Shown here one piece after another: positions 43,420 through 51,919 of a stretch of DNA of 64,000 nucleotides. Location: NCBI RefSeq assembly GCF_021389935.1, contig NZ_CP089979.1:2151001-2215000 (forward strand), read 5' to 3'. Position numbers and translations under genes: made by a program. This DNA is from Fulvivirga ligni. GTDB lineage: Bacteria; Bacteroidota; Bacteroidia; Cytophagales; Cyclobacteriaceae. The notes under the pieces were generated by a model, which saw nothing but the letters and a program-made list of their open reading frames with translations, did no database searches and had not been told where the DNA came from. Position 1 is the stretch's first letter; each line of letters starts with the position of its first letter.

Positions 43420-43590
43420 TTAGAATTGAGTCGTGTCGCTCATTGTGAATCCTCCTACAGGTTCTTGAGTCTTAGTTGGGGTTGATTTTTCTTCTAATTT
43501 TTTTCTGTTATTTATTTTGTTTACAGGGATGAAAGCAAATGAAGCTGCAATAGCTAATATAGATGTGAGTATTAATATTTTCTTTTTCAT
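43420..43590 (-). CDS. Small exported peptide with internal VGGF motif
   Basis: 56 residues from ATG 43590, read by eye. Residues 1-20 are a Sec-type signal/anchor (MKKKILILTS, then AAASFAF-like), with no lipobox cysteine. The following segment is basic (NKINNRKKLEEK), and the tail reads EPVGGFTMSDTTQF. It is the last gene of a minus-strand array; the start context resembles the three lipopeptide genes upstream, and it shares their GGF tripeptide but little else. Function unknown. If the GG were a cleavage site, a nine-residue peptide would be released; that is only a conjecture. Confidence 0.65.
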   Translation of the reverse strand: MKKKILILTSILAIAASFAFIPVNKINNRKKLEEKSTPTKTQEPVGGFTMSDTTQF

Positions 43591-43622
43591 GTTCGATATT
43601 CTTTTAGTTCTGTTGATATGTT

Positions 43623-43769
43623 TTAGAATCCACCAGTTTCGCGAATTACTGAACCATCTCCGCTGGTGTGGTCCACATTATTATTGGGAGTGATCTCCTC
43701 TTCAGTGCATGAGGCAAAGAATGTGATAGTAAATAATGCTAACAATAAGGCTGTAAATAATCTTTTCAT
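43623..43769 (-). CDS. Small lipopeptide, array copy C
   Basis: 48 residues with lipoprotein signal peptide (MKRLFTALLL, lipobox FASC, Cys21) and mature start CTEEEITP. It has the same length as copies A and B and differs from them at seven positions: one in the signal peptide (residue 11) and six between residues 22 and 33. The last 15 residues, HTSGDGSVIRETGGF, are identical in all three. It is the third unit of a 195-bp tandem repeat. The acidic run after the cysteine resembles a Bacteroidota surface-export signal. Confidence 0.82.
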   Translation of the reverse strand: MKRLFTALLLALFTITFFASCTEEEITPNNNVDHTSGDGSVIRETGGF

Positions 43770-43817
43770 GTTCAAGTTTGGTTTTATATAGTAGAAGAAA
43801 TGTTATGGTAGATTGAA

Positions 43818-43964
43818 TTAGAATCCTCCAGTTTCACGAATCACAGAACCGTCCCCGCTGGTATGTCCAGTGGTGTTTTTAGGTGCAATTTCTTCTTCCG
43901 CACAAGAGGCAAAGAATGTGATAGTAAATAATACTAATAATAGGGCTGTAAATAATCTTTTCAT
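43818..43964 (-). CDS. Small lipopeptide, array copy B
   Basis: 48 residues, identical in protein sequence to copy A (44013-44159). By eye the two genes differ at eight nucleotide positions, all synonymous, which indicates that the whole 48-residue product is under selection rather than freshly duplicated. Signal peptide with lipobox FASC (Cys21), mature part CAEEEIAPKNTTG followed by the invariant HTSGDGSVIRETGGF. No family is recognised. It probably shares a transcript with copies A and C and the following small peptide gene. Confidence 0.85.
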   Translation of the reverse strand: MKRLFTALLLVLFTITFFASCAEEEIAPKNTTGHTSGDGSVIRETGGF

Positions 43965-44012
43965 GTTCAAGTTTAGTTTTGTAAAGTAGAAGAAATGTTA
44001 AGGTAGGTTGAA

Positions 44013-44159
44013 TTAAAATCCACCAGTTTCGCGAATCACAGAACCGTCTCCGCTAGTATGTCCGGTGGTGTTTTTAGGTGCAATTTCTTCTTCCGCACAA
44101 GAGGCAAAGAATGTGATAGTGAATAATACTAATAATAAGGCTGTAAATAATCTTTTCAT
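44013..44159 (-). CDS. Small lipopeptide, array copy A
   Basis: 48 residues from ATG 44159; a longer in-frame start at 44198 would add 13 residues before the signal peptide and is disfavoured because copies B and C begin at the same MKRLFTALLL. The lipobox is FASC, and the predicted mature product is a 28-residue acylated peptide. It is the first unit of the array and lies 360 bp from the divergent TPR histidine kinase. No TAnnTTTG box was found upstream. Confidence 0.85.
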   Translation of the reverse strand: MKRLFTALLLVLFTITFFASCAEEEIAPKNTTGHTSGDGSVIRETGGF

Positions 44160-44521
44160 GTTCAAGTTTAGTTTTGGGGTTTTAGAATTGTAAAGCAAGA
44201 TTTGATTAAAAGAAATTGATATATTTAGGGTTGATTTATTTCTAGTTAACCATGAGGTAGGTGCTTAATTAGGTTCGAAAATTCAGCACTATTATTCCTC
44301 TAAACCTTGATTTCATTGTATAATTAGTTTTAGTTTTAGTCTTCTTTTATTTTTTTGTTTTAACTTATTGCTGGACTTGTTAATTTTTAACAAATCATAC
44401 ATAAATATTACATGTGTTATAGTGTCGGGGTTTTTTGTAATTGTTGTGTTTGAGTTTGTATGACACAAAAATGGATGGTTGGGTTTGTAAAAACTAATCA
44501 AAAATTAATGTAAACTTACTT
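44160..44521. other. AT-rich divergent intergenic region
   Basis: About 360 bp between the lipopeptide array and the sensor kinase gene. It is rich in T-runs and short TTAATT motifs, with no TAnnTTTG box on either strand and no convincing small gene. A short minus-strand frame here has biased composition and is not accepted. Promoters for both directions must lie in it. Confidence 0.6.
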
Positions 44522-46621
44522 GTGTGTTTCTTGTATAAATTATTGAAGAAAATAGTAGCAACACTTTTGATGTCAATTTTGATGTCAATGTCACATCTTT
44601 ATGCTGATGATATTGATTCATTAAAGGCGATTCTTTCCACTCAGGATTTTGCTGAAAAGGCTGAAGTGGCAAGGCAGCTTTTTGTGGCTTATAGTAATAG
44701 TAATTTAGACTCGGCTCTATATTTTGCTAAAGTGTCTAGTGAATATGCTACATATGCAGGTGATAGTTTATTGCTGTCAAGAGCTGAGTTTTGTATAGGC
44801 TGGGCATTAGATAATAAAGGTTTTTATCAAGATGCCATTGATCACTATGCCAAATCTTTAAGCATAGCTAATAATAATAATTATGATAGCCGGAAGAAGT
44901 ATATTTTAAATAATTTGGCTAATGCCAATTATCTGGTTGGTAATTATGATGATGCACTCAAATATCATTTTGAATCCCTCAGAATTAGAGAGCAAGAGGG
45001 TAATATGCTGGAAGTGGCTATTTCCCTGAATAATATAGGGCTGGTTTATTATAAAATAAGGGATTTTAAAAATGCCATTAGCTTTTTCAATCAGTCGGTT
45101 AAGATAAAAAAGGAGATTCAAAACGAGCAGGATATTGAAAGTGTTCTGGTTAATCTCGGGTTGTGTTATTCGGAATTAGAACAATATAAAAAGGCTATTG
45201 AGTATTTTGACCAAGTTTTAAATATTTGCCAGGAGGGATGTTCTGATAGGATGAAGATTGAGGCTCTTAATGGTGCAGGTATAGCAAACTATAATTTGGG
45301 GGAAATAGTTGAGGCTGACAGATATTTTAATAGCTCAAATGAGTTAGCTGTAGGAGAGGACTATCAGGTATACCGGGTTATCAATGATCATTATTTGGCA
45401 AAGGTTAAATTAGATAGAGATGAGCTGGAGGAGGCTAAAAGTTATATAAATAGAAGTTTAGCTTTGGCAGAGCATTTAGGCTATAGAACTTGGATTAGAG
45501 ATAATTATCAATTACTGGGCAAAATTAAATTCGATGAAGGAGAATTTAAGGAAGCCTATAAATATCAGATTATATACGACTCCTTAAGTAGTTTAATACT
45601 AAATGAAGAGGTAATCCAAAACTTAACGCAGATTCAGGTTGAATATCGAGAGCGGGAGAATATTGAAACCATAAGTAATCAAAAATCAGAATTATCTAAA
45701 CGCACTACTTTACTTGTTTTATCCGCGATTATCATCCTTCTAGCTATAGTAATTTTAGTAATCTTATATAAGAGTAATCACCACAGGAGAAAAGTAAATA
45801 AAGAACTCTCCGTGGCTAATGAAAAGCTTTCTGAAGCCAACGATACCATCGAGCGGCAGAACCAGGAATTGACAGATGTTAATTTTAAGCTAGAGGAAAT
45901 TGTAAAAGATAGAACTAAGGAGCTTAAAGCTACTAACGCTGCACTTTTAAAGTCAAATAATGAGCTTGACAATTTCATTTATAAAACCTCTCATGATATT
46001 AGAGGTCCACTAGCTACGTTGCAAGGAGTCTGTAATGTGGCACTGATTGATATTAAGGATGAAAGAGCTATTGATTATTTCCAAAAATTAGGCAATACGG
46101 CACGAAATTTGAACGAAATCCTTTCTAAGCTTTTGATTATCAATCAGATAAACAACTCCTTAATTTCCGACGATAAAATTGATTTCGATTCATTGATAGA
46201 TAGCATCGTCAAAGAACAGAAAACTCTGAAGCGAGCGAAGAATATTTCTGTCAATAAAGAGATTGATGATAACCTATATTTTAAAAGTGACGTAGATCTG
46301 TTAAAGATTATATTAAATAATTTGATCGGTAATTCGTTCAAGTTTTATAATACCTCTAACAGGCTTGATTCATTTGTTACTATAAGGATATTTAAGGAGA
46401 AGGATCTGGTTATGCAGGTGATTGATAATGGAATTGGCATTGAAGATAAGGCGTCTGACAAGATCTTTGAGATCTTTTCAAAGGCATCTGAAATGGCTGA
46501 TTCGGCAGGTCTTGGTCTGTACTTGGTGAAACTGGCAGTGGAAAAGCTGGAAGGCGAAATAGCGTTGGTGAAAACAGAAGAGGGGCACACATGTTTTCAT
46601 GTAACTATTCCTCAGGGGTAA
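44522..46621 (+). CDS. TPR-containing sensor histidine kinase
   Basis: 699 residues if read from GTG 44522; TTG 44543 or ATG 44570 are alternatives, and the first ~27 residues (KKIVATLLMSILMSMSHLYA) look like a signal peptide. Residues about 35-365 contain some seven TPR repeats, followed by a coiled coil, a single TM helix (395-417), a second coiled coil (420-485), the HisKA region with phospho-acceptor His491 (SHDIRGPLATL) and the HATPase domain with N box (NNLIGNSFKF), DNGIGIE and GLGLYLVK. The topology puts the TPR sensor in the periplasm. No response regulator is adjacent. Divergent from the lipopeptide array. Confidence 0.92.
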   Translation: MCFLYKLLKKIVATLLMSILMSMSHLYADDIDSLKAILSTQDFAEKAEVARQLFVAYSNSNLDSALYFAKVSSEYATYAGDSLLLSRAEFCIGWALDNKGFYQDAIDHYAKSLSIANNNNYDSRKKYILNNLANANYLVGNYDDALKYHFESLRIREQEGNMLEVAISLNNIGLVYYKIRDFKNAISFFNQSVKIKKEIQNEQDIESVLVNLGLCYSELEQYKKAIEYFDQVLNICQEGCSDRMKIEALNGAGIANYNLGEIVEADRYFNSSNELAVGEDYQVYRVINDHYLAKVKLDRDELEEAKSYINRSLALAEHLGYRTWIRDNYQLLGKIKFDEGEFKEAYKYQIIYDSLSSLILNEEVIQNLTQIQVEYRERENIETISNQKSELSKRTTLLVLSAIIILLAIVILVILYKSNHHRRKVNKELSVANEKLSEANDTIERQNQELTDVNFKLEEIVKDRTKELKATNAALLKSNNELDNFIYKTSHDIRGPLATLQGVCNVALIDIKDERAIDYFQKLGNTARNLNEILSKLLIINQINNSLISDDKIDFDSLIDSIVKEQKTLKRAKNISVNKEIDDNLYFKSDVDLLKIILNNLIGNSFKFYNTSNRLDSFVTIRIFKEKDLVMQVIDNGIGIEDKASDKIFEIFSKASEMADSAGLGLYLVKLAVEKLEGEIALVKTEEGHTCFHVTIPQG

Positions 46622-46662
46622 TCTTAAGCTAATAGTTTATTATCAACCGCATTAATTCATTT

Positions 46663-47079
46663 ATGCTAGGTAAAATATGTTTAAAACAGCCTAGTGCTGC
46701 AGAAAGTAGCACGGCTTGCATCGCCTCGGTTTCTGTTTATTATGGTCTTAATATTCCTCTCCAGATCATAAGAAGGTTTGCTCCATTAGAAAATGAGAAG
46801 GCTACTTACGAAAAGCTTGTTATGGCAGCGCAGTCTGTTGGTTTCGAGGTGATTGAGCTGGTAAATGATGAGTTTTATCTGCGAAACATGAGAAAGCCAT
46901 TGATTACTTCATTTGGCACTGATGATAATCCACACTTTGTAGTAGTGTATGATGTTTCAGATACCAGAGTGGCCTTAATGGATCCAAAAGATGGTAAGAT
47001 ACATGAGTTTTCACTAGATGAGTTTAAACAGGGTTGTGGTTCTTTCCTTTTGCAATTAAAGCCAACTCTTTTCCGATAA
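46663..47079 (+). CDS. C39-peptidase-like protein lacking the catalytic cysteine
   Basis: 138-residue stand-alone domain resembling C39 bacteriocin-processing peptidases. The region ESSTACIASVSVYYGLNI aligns with the family block DCGPACLAMVxxYYG, the middle reads YEKLVMAAQSVGFEV, and the end contains DNPHFVVVYDV (His91) and ALMDPKDGK (Asp107). The catalytic Cys position is Ser15; only the second family cysteine (Cys19) is kept. Like the C39-like domains of peptide exporters it may bind rather than cut peptides. No signal peptide or TM helix, so it is cytosolic. It starts 42 bp after the TPR kinase gene on the same strand. Confidence 0.75.
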   Translation: MLGKICLKQPSAAESSTACIASVSVYYGLNIPLQIIRRFAPLENEKATYEKLVMAAQSVGFEVIELVNDEFYLRNMRKPLITSFGTDDNPHFVVVYDVSDTRVALMDPKDGKIHEFSLDEFKQGCGSFLLQLKPTLFR

Positions 47080-49315: not shown

Positions 49316-51919
49316 ATGTTTAAAAAGATTATATCCACAATAGTAGGGTTCGGCATAGTTGAAGATATGCCATTCACACAGGCCAAGCGGGTGAAGCTGG
49401 TGAACGTTTGTTCATTTCTGGCGGCTCTTTCTACCTTCCCCTACATCTTTCTATTTATTGGCCAGATCACCTATCTGGGAATTGCCTCATTGACTTTCTT
49501 TCTCGCGTTTATAGGTACATTGTTATGGAATTGTGCTGGTAAGTACCAGGTAGCTAAATTTTGGATACTGGTTAATAGTCATGCCTATATATTGCTCACG
49601 GCTTCATCATTTGGTAGATATGCCGGTGAGCAACTCATTCTCATTCCAGTGCTTTTTGGTGCGGTACTGGTTTTTGAGTTCAAAGAAAAGCTGAGCTTAT
49701 ACTTTTCCATAGGTCTCACAGTCGCTTGCTTCCTATTTTTGGAGTATACTAACTATTCACTGTTGAATCTTGACATTTCCCCTGCTGAGCAATTGGAATA
49801 TTATCAGGGTAATCTGGTCATTACAGTTGCTTGTTGCGTAACCATTGCAATTTTCTATTTCTACCTCTACGGACAGCAACTGGATGAAAATCAGCGGGCT
49901 ATGAATACTAGTAAGGAGATAGAGGAGATGATCAGCTATTTTTCTAATTCATTGTATGGTAAGAATACCGTGGACGAGATATTGTGGGATGTAGCTAAGA
50001 ATTGTATTGGTAGATTGGGCTTGGTGGATTGTGTAATATACATGATGGATGAAGACAGGCAGGTTCTGGTTCAGAAAGCAGCCTTTGGAGATAAAAATCC
50101 TCATGACTTTGAGATTTTTAATCCCATAGTGATACCGGCAGGTAAGGGCATAGTAGGCCATGTGGCGAAAACGATGAAGCCATTTATTGTGCAGGATACC
50201 TCCAAAGAACCCATGTATATCGCTGATGACCGAGTGAGGCTGTCGGAAGTGGCTGTGCCATTAATTTACAACAATAAGACTATTGGGGTTATTGATTCTG
50301 AGCATCCAGAAAAGAATTTTTATAAGCAGCGCCATGTAGATTTATTAAATATTGTAGCTTCATTATGTGCTAATAAAGTAGTGAGAGCCATGGCTGATGA
50401 AGAGCGAGCTAAGGCCTTGAAGATTAAAATGGAAGCTGAAAAGATAAAGGCCTTTGATGAATTTAAAACCAAACTATTTGCTAATGTTTCTCATGAATTA
50501 AGAACGCCACTTACATTAATAAAAGGCACAGTTTCAAAACACCGGGAAGAATCAGAAGATTGGATACTTATGCATAGGCATACTGATCATCTATTGAGAC
50601 TGATCAATCAAATACTGGACCTTACCAAAATAGAGTCGGGGCATTTTGAATTACATCATCAGCCGAATGACATAACAGCATTCTTTAAAATATTAGTTTC
50701 TACTTTTAGCTCATTGGCTAGTCATAAACAAGTGGAGATTATTGACAATATAGGAGATGATCCGTTTTACCTTTCTTATGATCAGGATGCTTTGGAGAAG
50801 ATAATGTTCAACCTTTTCTCTAATGCCATTAAGTTTTCGCCTCACCATTCCTCCATAGAGTTAAAGGTCACTTATGATGATGTTCTCGTTATTCAGGTGA
50901 TAGATAGGGGACCTGGTATACCTGATTTACTTCAAAATAAGATTTTTGAGAGGTACTATCAGGTGCCATCAGTAACTAGTGGAGGAACAGGAATAGGCTT
51001 GGCTCTGACCAAAGAACTGGTGGAATTGTTTAATGGAGATATTTCTGTATCTAACGCCTCTGATGGTGGAGCTGTATTTACAGTGAAGTTACCTGTTCCT
51101 ATCTCAGGAGCATCTGAGAATGAGGTGCAAATGGAAGTGGAAGATTCACTTTCAGAGGTAGATAGTAAGCGTTTGGTCTTATTGGTAGAGGATAATGTGG
51201 AGCTGCTTGCCTACATCCGGAATGAGCTAAAAGAAAGCTTTAAGGTGATAACAGCTGCTGATGGTGAATTGGCTAAAAAGAAAGCCCAGGATCAGTTGCC
51301 TGATGTTATCATCAGTGATATTATGATGCCTAATACAGATGGGATAGAGTTCTGTAAATGGTTGAAAAATAATGAGCTTACCAGCCATATTCCGATAATG
51401 CTGCTTACGGCAGTTGCTGATCAGAAAAAAAGGCTTGAAGGCTATGAACAGGGTGCAGATGATTATCTTACTAAACCATTTGATAGTCATGAGCTTAGAG
51501 TTAGGGTAAATAACTTATTAAGATCTCGGGATAAGTTGAAAGAGAAGTATCAAAATGTATTAAAGATGCCTTCTCATGATATTGTAATACAGAGCTCGGA
51601 TGAGCTTTTTATGAAAAAGGTTTTAAAGGCAATTGATAATAATATTGAAAACAACGACTACAGTGTATCTCAGCTATGTGAAGAGGTGGGGCTAAGTAGA
51701 ATGCAGATGCATAGAAAGCTGGTAGCACTTACTGACTTTTCTGCGACTTCTTTTATCAGAGAAGTGCGTTTGCATCGAGCTATGGAATTGCTCTCCTCAG
51801 GTGAGCCAGTGTCTCAGGTGGCCTATGCTGTTGGATTTAACAGCCTTTCTTATTTTAGTAAAATCTTTAAGGGTAAGTTTGGTCACTTACCTTCGGAGGT
51901 AGTTGCAGTTAATCGTTAA
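49316..51919 (+). CDS. Hybrid sensor kinase / response regulator with AraC-type output
   Basis: 867-residue single-protein two-component system. Residues about 28-185 form six membrane helices (7TM-like sensor), about 205-355 a GAF domain, about 380-450 HisKA with His393 (SHELRTPLTLIKG), about 485-595 HATPase (NLFSNAIKFS, DRGPGIPD, GTGIGLAL), about 618-735 a receiver with Asp668 (ISDIMMPNTDG) and Lys720, and about 765-865 an AraC-type double HTH ending GFNSLSYFSKIFKGKFGHLPS. Unlike classic Bacteroidota hybrid systems it has no periplasmic beta-propeller sensor. An alternative start is Met18. Overlaps the convergent pth gene by 11 bp. Confidence 0.93.
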   Translation: MFKKIISTIVGFGIVEDMPFTQAKRVKLVNVCSFLAALSTFPYIFLFIGQITYLGIASLTFFLAFIGTLLWNCAGKYQVAKFWILVNSHAYILLTASSFGRYAGEQLILIPVLFGAVLVFEFKEKLSLYFSIGLTVACFLFLEYTNYSLLNLDISPAEQLEYYQGNLVITVACCVTIAIFYFYLYGQQLDENQRAMNTSKEIEEMISYFSNSLYGKNTVDEILWDVAKNCIGRLGLVDCVIYMMDEDRQVLVQKAAFGDKNPHDFEIFNPIVIPAGKGIVGHVAKTMKPFIVQDTSKEPMYIADDRVRLSEVAVPLIYNNKTIGVIDSEHPEKNFYKQRHVDLLNIVASLCANKVVRAMADEERAKALKIKMEAEKIKAFDEFKTKLFANVSHELRTPLTLIKGTVSKHREESEDWILMHRHTDHLLRLINQILDLTKIESGHFELHHQPNDITAFFKILVSTFSSLASHKQVEIIDNIGDDPFYLSYDQDALEKIMFNLFSNAIKFSPHHSSIELKVTYDDVLVIQVIDRGPGIPDLLQNKIFERYYQVPSVTSGGTGIGLALTKELVELFNGDISVSNASDGGAVFTVKLPVPISGASENEVQMEVEDSLSEVDSKRLVLLVEDNVELLAYIRNELKESFKVITAADGELAKKKAQDQLPDVIISDIMMPNTDGIEFCKWLKNNELTSHIPIMLLTAVADQKKRLEGYEQGADDYLTKPFDSHELRVRVNNLLRSRDKLKEKYQNVLKMPSHDIVIQSSDELFMKKVLKAIDNNIENNDYSVSQLCEEVGLSRMQMHRKLVALTDFSATSFIREVRLHRAMELLSSGEPVSQVAYAVGFNSLSYFSKIFKGKFGHLPSEVVAVNR

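Follow-up and report, generated by a model that had tools for sequence, protein, structure and literature searches.

Peptides of the array and the question they raise

Do small exported peptides that are encoded back to back with a histidine kinase serve as the signal which that kinase reads? This question is raised by a locus of Fulvivirga ligni at positions 43420 to 47079 of a 64,000-nucleotide stretch of contig NZ_CP089979.1 (positions 2,151,001 to 2,215,000; hereafter the window), whose genome is a single contig of 6.52 Mb. An array of four tiny minus-strand genes, encoding three lipopeptides (type A) and one further exported peptide (type B), is divergent to a gene for a histidine kinase with a tetratricopeptide repeat (TPR) sensor domain. 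We consider it probable that the locus is a self-encoded peptide-receptor module, in which the peptide tails would be ligands of the predicted periplasmic TPR domain, and the array together with the sensor half of the kinase would constitute a specificity cassette. Our confidence is based on layout counts, mosaic DNA pairs, a discordance test and a neighbouring-kinase control; the evidence behind the ligand reading is genetic. At the level of sequence, comparison with relatives reveals a conserved layout, constrained tails, a mosaic block in some close relatives, and tails that track the TPR half of the kinase.

Type B (43420..43590, minus strand; 56 residues) has an N-terminal hydrophobic segment without a lipobox and ends in the tail EPVGGFTMSDTTQF; inspection by eye gave no firm cleavage site for it. 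The three type A genes (43623..43769, 43818..43964 and 44013..44159, minus strand, counted from their ATG starts) form a 195-bp tandem repeat with nearly identical 48-residue products, and copies 2 and 3 have the same tail as copy 1, SGDGSVIRETGGF. They are separated by a divergent intergenic region (44160..44521) from the kinase gene (44522..46621, plus strand), which starts with GTG and encodes 699 residues in the order signal peptide, TPR, one transmembrane helix and kinase, the signal peptide and the helix being read from the sequence. The half that varies with the peptides is the predicted periplasmic TPR sensor domain (residues 40-355; 44639..45586, plus strand); the transmembrane helix follows at about residues 395-416 (45704..45769, plus strand), and residues 478-695 (45953..46606, plus strand) form the conserved HisKA and HATPase half. 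Domain searches matched TPR_12 (E 2.7e-31) and HATPase_c (E 1.8e-17), and a HisKA match (E 1.9e-5) fell just short of the cut-off. A preliminary description of this DNA had listed four tiny minus-strand peptide genes, a divergent TPR kinase and a C39-like gene, and all of these were confirmed; its term "tandem lipopeptides" is right for the three type A genes and wrong for the fourth.

The array and the kinase occur together in relatives

The best 80 of 403 relatives of the kinase, the closest named ones being Fulvivirga, were picked by the kinase alone, and many of these loci come from the same genomes that supplied the peptide profiles. At least 500 bp of upstream DNA was available for 71 of the 80 loci, and type A and type B genes divergent to the kinase were present in 68 and 62 of these 71, respectively. 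The three loci lacking type A are L259, where the upstream DNA includes 78 N, L277, which is the second kinase of F. imtechensis, and L275. At L275 a single open reading frame of 107 residues with an A-like start and a B-like end is located upstream of the kinase; there are 7 N in this region and the frame may be an assembly artefact.

A type B profile search of 295 genomes of the family gave matches in 73 at E<=0.01 and in 53 at E<=1e-4. Inspection of the loci of all 53 genomes of the stricter set revealed a divergent kinase in 49, the loci of G003, G007, G195 and G312 being cut by contig ends; among the 49, the contig ends within the kinase gene in G057 and G280, and the gene is split over two frames in G241. 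The peptide search (117 relatives) and the kinase search (68) converge on the same loci, in the genus and in some other genera, and the fetched loci are ordered kinase, A copies, B, both peptide types being oriented away from the kinase gene. Since the same gene order recurs in dozens of genomes the arrangement is not due to chance, and the expectation that array and kinase occur together and stay divergent is borne out. Genome G033 has type A and no recognised type B. A search with a single peptide sequence, which gave matches in 78 of the 117 genomes at E<=1, was discarded because below the top rows these were mostly chance matches inside larger frames.

The module is usually located between bioB or typA and metG (names that were given by eye from the sequence, with no search behind them), and synteny therefore accounts for part of the co-occurrence. 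Array and kinase are still paired where the flanks differ, on both sides in G009 and on the right side only in G002 and G012.

In the window genome, neither A nor B was present at 29 fetched loci of the 35 other kinase matches; only four of these 29 (L172, L184, L193 and L196) match the sensor region with upstream DNA in view; the remainder match the kinase half, and part of their upstream DNA may be out of view. A type B profile search of 341 genomes of the order gave matches in 35 at E<=0.001, and those spanning at least 50 of the 53 positions were confined to one family (f1), the others being partial and inside larger frames. A kinase match was found in 18 of 46 genomes of other families, and 30 kinase loci fetched from other families lacked A and B; most of these are kinase-half matches with a 1500-bp flank, and the upstream region is fully visible in few.

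Some loci show other arrangements. L169 (G339) is a tandem of two diverged modules that have a type A, a B-like peptide and a kinase apiece, the match of the first B-like peptide being weak. Next to remoter TPR kinases (L278-L281; 30-31% identity) lies a divergently oriented lipopeptide gene with a different type of tail, and no B was recognised there. In G018 a solitary A-like lipopeptide (L097, 7270-7404) was found on a fetched stretch lacking a related kinase, and we kept it as an exception.

The peptide tails are constrained within genomes and differ between species

Arrays with at least two A copies were compared in 17 cases, L169 being counted as its two-copy first module. The 11-residue A tails are identical throughout 11 of the 17 arrays, their DNA differing by synonymous changes or not at all; pairwise comparison of the copies in the window gave 5, 4 and 3 synonymous and 0 nonsynonymous tail changes. 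There are up to about 23 nonsynonymous differences between the signal peptides of one array, and their identity can be as low as 16%. Among the other arrays, those of G220, G239, G194 and G143 have tails of unequal length around a common core, those of G029 differ at 1 of 11 positions, and those of G234 are 73-91% identical. In a larger set, the last nine tail residues are common to all copies in 21 of 27 multi-copy arrays. From species to species the A tails are strongly different.

The tails of types A and B resemble each other within some genomes (SERI in both in G250, SEKI in both in G277). When partners were permuted within genera, 150 of 20000 permutations gave an equally good likeness, and permutation of the 12-residue tails within kinase clusters gave 0 of 10000 at both 0.45 and 0.55 identity. 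A nearest-neighbour comparison gave p=0.02 for 12 residues and p=0.004 for 8 residues, and the sign count for 8 residues was 46 to 33.

The tails vary with the sensor half of the kinase

To follow both halves of the kinase, 132 units were reduced to 103 by removal of identical kinase ends; 91 of these combine type A with a kinase of 600 residues or more, L097, L090 and L169 having been excluded by hand. Some close relatives share the kinase half and the flanks, and differ in a block comprising B, A and the TPR half, as judged by sequence alignment. The clearest picture was given by Ohtaekwangia koreensis (L161) and a metagenome-assembled genome (L142), whose kinases are identical over 218 aligned HisKA/HATPase residues and 64% identical over the TPR domain. 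At the DNA level identity is 95.9% up to the bioB stop, the left edge of the block, and 51-72% across the array and the sequence that encodes the TPR domain; upstream of the array the alignment contains large gaps. Identity returns to at least 92% about 90 bases past the TPR end, and is 93-99% over the flanks and the kinase half. The right edge lies at about +1150, and the TPR domain ends at +1095. This pair is one of eight that were picked by hand. A two-sided drop was also found in L233/L144 and L143/L132, and the right edge alone in L165/L146 and L084/L067, where the left flank is unlike or cut by a contig end. The pairs L138/L147 and L080/L082, whose tails are alike, show no drop over the TPR half, and L247/L249 gave no clear pattern.

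Across all 70 pairs with identities of 0.8 or higher in the kinase half, tail distance correlated with TPR identity (Spearman -0.80) far more closely than with kinase identity (-0.25), the pairs not being independent of each other. Among 31 pairs with a kinase-half identity of at least 0.85, TPR identity was 0.88 for pairs with the same tail (n=11), 0.70 for intermediate (n=5) and 0.51 for different tails (n=15). In 56 of the 91 units the nearest relative according to the kinase half is not the nearest according to the TPR half. The 12-residue A tail of these discordant units resembled that of the TPR relative in 44 cases and that of the kinase relative in 8, with 4 ties; for the B tail these numbers were 35, 5 and 4 (of 44). 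For instance, the TPR half of G005 is nearest to that of the window (0.65; tails GSAISETGGF and GSVIRETGGF), whereas by kinase half its closest relative is L084 (0.89), whose TPR half is 0.32 identical to that of G005 and whose tail is unlike. By these sequence measures, the A and B tails follow the TPR half more closely than they follow the kinase half.

TPR kinases without arrays served as controls. Six genomes of the genus have, beside the module, a second TPR kinase that lacks an array, and in 15 of 15 pairs of these its TPR identity was within about 0.10 of its kinase identity. For the array-linked kinase of the same 15 pairs the TPR identity was 0.05 to 0.24 lower, the exception being G001/G014 (0.90 and 0.90), where both have the same tail. 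The other control was the family of TPR kinase L172, present in 15 of 29 genomes: between G005 and G006 its sensor and kinase identities are 0.86 and 0.90, and those of the array-linked kinase 0.32 and 0.89.

The sensor domain resembles peptide-binding TPR domains

An AlphaFold2 model of the kinase contains a confident TPR superhelix (pLDDT of at least 89 per block over residues 41-350; overall pTM 0.54), whose nearest solved folds are the TPR domains of LGN/Pins bound to peptides or partner proteins. Sequence searches also matched LGN, as well as RapF (E about 8e-6 to 9e-6). A ladder of Asn residues is retained among the 91 array-linked kinases: N171 in 91, N211 in 90, and N130 and N170 in 86 each. 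Such residues are part of the general TPR pattern. The residue pattern suits a conserved backbone grip combined with variable specificity, and is not proof of it. In addition, residues C236 and C240 (C-x3-C or C-x4-C) are each retained in 86 of the 91 kinases, and may form a disulfide. A scan detected this motif in some other kinases (G002, G012 and G190) and in none of the six second kinases that occur in tandem in the genus.

Predicted export of the peptides and signalling partners

We infer that the peptides are exported via Sec and the lipoprotein pathway. Of 134 distinct type A proteins, 133 have a recognised lipobox, and in 127 of these position +2 is polar or Ala and two or more of positions +3 to +5 are acidic. 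PMC5080379 describes Bacteroidetes surface-export signals in which acidic residues follow a residue that is polar or basic. The pattern following the Cys of type A resembles this signal, and type A is accordingly predicted, from its sequence, to be exposed at the cell surface. No gene for a peptide-modifying or exporting enzyme was conserved beside the module at 21 loci, where open reading frames of at least 90 residues were considered.

A response regulator gene that would complete the circuit had been reported as absent next to the kinase, and indeed none is present beside it in the window genome. At three Fulvivirga loci (L083, L085 and L088, in G002, G009 and G012) the kinase gene is followed by a gene of about 130 residues, unassigned to a family, and then by a gene for a single-domain receiver. 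The ~130-residue gene, searched in 16 genomes, had no match in the window genome; the receiver gene itself was not searched, and for that reason we do not assign a response regulator here.

Weighing the ligand reading against its alternatives

A module of this kind might work as follows. Beyond the cytoplasm, types A and B would display a C-terminal tail particular to the species. By docking in the concave groove of the TPR domain in the periplasm, this tail would set the activity of the histidine kinase, in one direction or the other. The response regulator would be encoded elsewhere. Array and sensor half would diversify together and, at least sometimes, be exchanged as one specificity cassette, like ComQXPA pherotypes. 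Neighbouring cells may be sensed, perhaps via surface-exposed or vesicle-borne type A. That the polymorphic tails change in step with the sensing half suggests a private peptide signalling channel, and the fact that close relatives differ by such a mosaic speaks for communication or kin discrimination. The claim of the preliminary description that the acylated peptides are ligands of the TPR domain is strengthened by the co-occurrence and by the variation of the tails with the TPR half, whereas the outcome of the groove test is mixed and the support is genetic.

Several results count against the ligand reading. In G027 a related kinase (30% identity) occupies the site of the module, between a typA-like and a metG-like gene, without peptides, and the window genome offers no response regulator gene next to the kinase. 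Six of the 27 multi-copy arrays have unlike tails. When tails were pooled (all pairs, including tails of unequal length, compared without gaps) the proportions of nonsynonymous and synonymous differences (pN and pS) were 0.165 and 0.436, versus 0.230 and 0.497 for signal peptides; tail constraint is only modestly stronger in this measure because some arrays have unequal tails. Between the closest relatives, covariation of the 12-residue A and B tails is weaker (at 0.65 identity, 161 of 10000 permutations did as well), and their sign count is even (40 to 40). The L172-family control also shows sensor identities below kinase identities in some pairs: 0.76 versus 0.97 (G133/G253), 0.68 versus 0.91 (G001/G014) and 0.43 versus 0.61 (G000/G005). 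The groove itself gave a mixed picture: with groove positions picked from the TPR literature, mean entropy over the 91 sequences was 2.42 bits in the groove, 2.20 in the B helices and 2.06 at other helix-A positions. The proposed conservation of the groove is seen in the Asn ladder, and not in the groove as a whole, which is on average more variable than the B helices.

The alternative that survives best, although we regard it as rather unlikely, is that the kinase performs envelope surveillance: it would gauge the cell's own lipopeptides en route to the outer membrane or surface, with no signal passing between cells. Its scope overlaps with the ligand reading, as the peptides would still bind the TPR domain. 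Escherichia coli NlpE, which reports to Cpx, provides an analogy. The lipoprotein nature of type A leaves room for this explanation; A bears a surface-export-like signal, sensor and peptides are both predicted to be extracytoplasmic, and type B may remain at the inner membrane. Surveillance provides no obvious reason, however, why tails and sensor should differ jointly between close relatives.

A less probable explanation, which we doubt, is that the association merely reflects linkage: the block would be a hot spot of recombination, or would have been diversified by phage or predators acting on surface peptides from outside, with TPR variation carried along. The array and the TPR coding sequence are physically adjacent, so that one recombination tract can move both without any functional match. 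In agreement with this, the A signal peptide also tracks the TPR half (38 to 16), as do the mature N-terminal part of A (35 to 16) and the N-terminal part of B (30 to 14), and the last 7 residues of the A tail (36 to 14) do not exceed the signal peptide. Partial Mantel tests gave a correlation of the signal peptide with the groove as well, and non-groove helix-A positions scored equal to groove positions; as groove positions are not singled out, we rejected these tests as evidence for the groove. Linkage thus accounts for part of the association between tails and TPR half. What speaks against linkage alone is that the right edge of the block in L161/L142 falls near the end of the TPR domain, and that the neighbouring array-free TPR kinase is not split. 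An excess of tails over linked sequence exists for the 12-residue A tails and the B tails, which track the TPR half more strongly than signal peptides do, and does not exist in the 7-residue count.

Within the ligand reading, a more specific version is a Gram-negative pherotype system, in which strain-specific lipopeptide tails borne on the surface or on vesicles would be read by the TPR half, type B would provide the copy of the tail that belongs to the cell itself, kin would be told from non-kin, and the cassette would be swapped whole. We propose this version tentatively, its chances being somewhat short of even.

The C39-like gene and other neighbouring genes

The gene following the kinase (46663..47079, plus strand) encodes a C39-like single-domain protein and probably lies outside the module. 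The C39 match itself, claimed previously, holds (E 3e-17), and the spacing is 41 bp instead of the 42 bp given earlier. The protein scores 63.1 bits against the Pfam C39 domain, whose cut-off is 22 bits, yet it reads KQPSAAESSTAC at a site that is KQHDITDCGAAC in transporter relatives, so that a Ser takes the place of the catalytic Cys (rows L039, L042, L044, L045 and L066 were left out of this comparison). The catalytic Cys of C39 peptidases belongs to the motif QxxxxDCG, which was also seen in the relatives here. When 117 genomes were searched with the C39-like protein, the best matches were at the beginning of frames of about 730 residues, judged to be transporters by their length and Pfam/NCBIfam match, with a few in shorter frames elsewhere, one of them a frame of 155 residues elsewhere in the window genome. 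That the C39-like protein processes or binds the peptides, as the fuller circuit of the preliminary description had it, is very improbable despite the location of its gene on the same strand 41 bp downstream of the kinase gene, given the Ser in place of the catalytic Cys, the location of the best matches mainly in the ~730-residue frames, and the absence of a C39-like counterpart adjoining the module at 20 other loci.

Past the metG-like gene, positions 49316-51919 of the window encode a hybrid sensor kinase with GAF, receiver and AraC-type helix-turn-helix domains, which is missing from that place in the closest relative, G005.

Relation to known systems

ComQXPA of Bacillus resembles the module in having a small peptide gene beside a histidine kinase gene and in its pattern of variation: according to PMC4008528, the C-terminal end of the peptide and the N-terminal part of the sensor vary most, and the cytoplasmic part is conserved. 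As for the linkage features of agr/ComQXPA-like systems, the module has a peptide gene adjoining the kinase gene, and peptide and sensor half co-vary while the kinase half is conserved; it lacks a linked modifying or exporting enzyme (21 loci), such as an isoprenyl transferase, and a linked response regulator (window genome). Its putative ligand would be the tail of a lipoprotein in a Gram-negative host, and its sensor a predicted periplasmic TPR domain, whereas the ComQXPA sensor is a multi-helix membrane domain. Apart from the kinase domain we saw no common part, and the components are unrelated.

The RRNPP receptors (Rap, PlcR, NprR) share the TPR fold as peptide receptor, as reflected in the RapF match. 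They are described in PMC4147580 as cytoplasmic sensors of re-imported peptides, whereas the TPR domain of the module is part of a histidine kinase and predicted to be periplasmic. FimS of Porphyromonas gingivalis also has periplasmic TPR repeats on a Bacteroidota histidine kinase, and its equivalog NF053520 is the best NCBIfam match of the kinase, at 94 bits against a cut-off of 600. According to PMC11053733, the FimS signal is unknown and a polypeptide has been suggested. Type A matches the PG1828 family lipoprotein (NF050142) weakly, over residues 1-41 or 1-35 (E 3.5e-5 and 6.3e-4; 24.4 and 20.4 bits, respectively) against a cut-off of 50 bits, the tail being outside the matched part. Among the papers listed by searches of the open-licence PMC literature, we recognised no account of such a system. 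We file the module as a new form of peptide two-component signalling, outside every named family.

Implications

Matched polymorphic alleles of peptide and receptor are classic for private communication among bacteria, and are known mostly from Gram-positive bacteria. If the ligand reading is true, the module would be a Bacteroidota counterpart built from lipopeptides and a periplasmic TPR kinase, and would represent a separate origin of the pherotype logic. It would also suggest a concrete class of ligands for periplasmic TPR kinases such as FimS, and the natural mosaic alleles open the question of specificity to short synthetic peptides.

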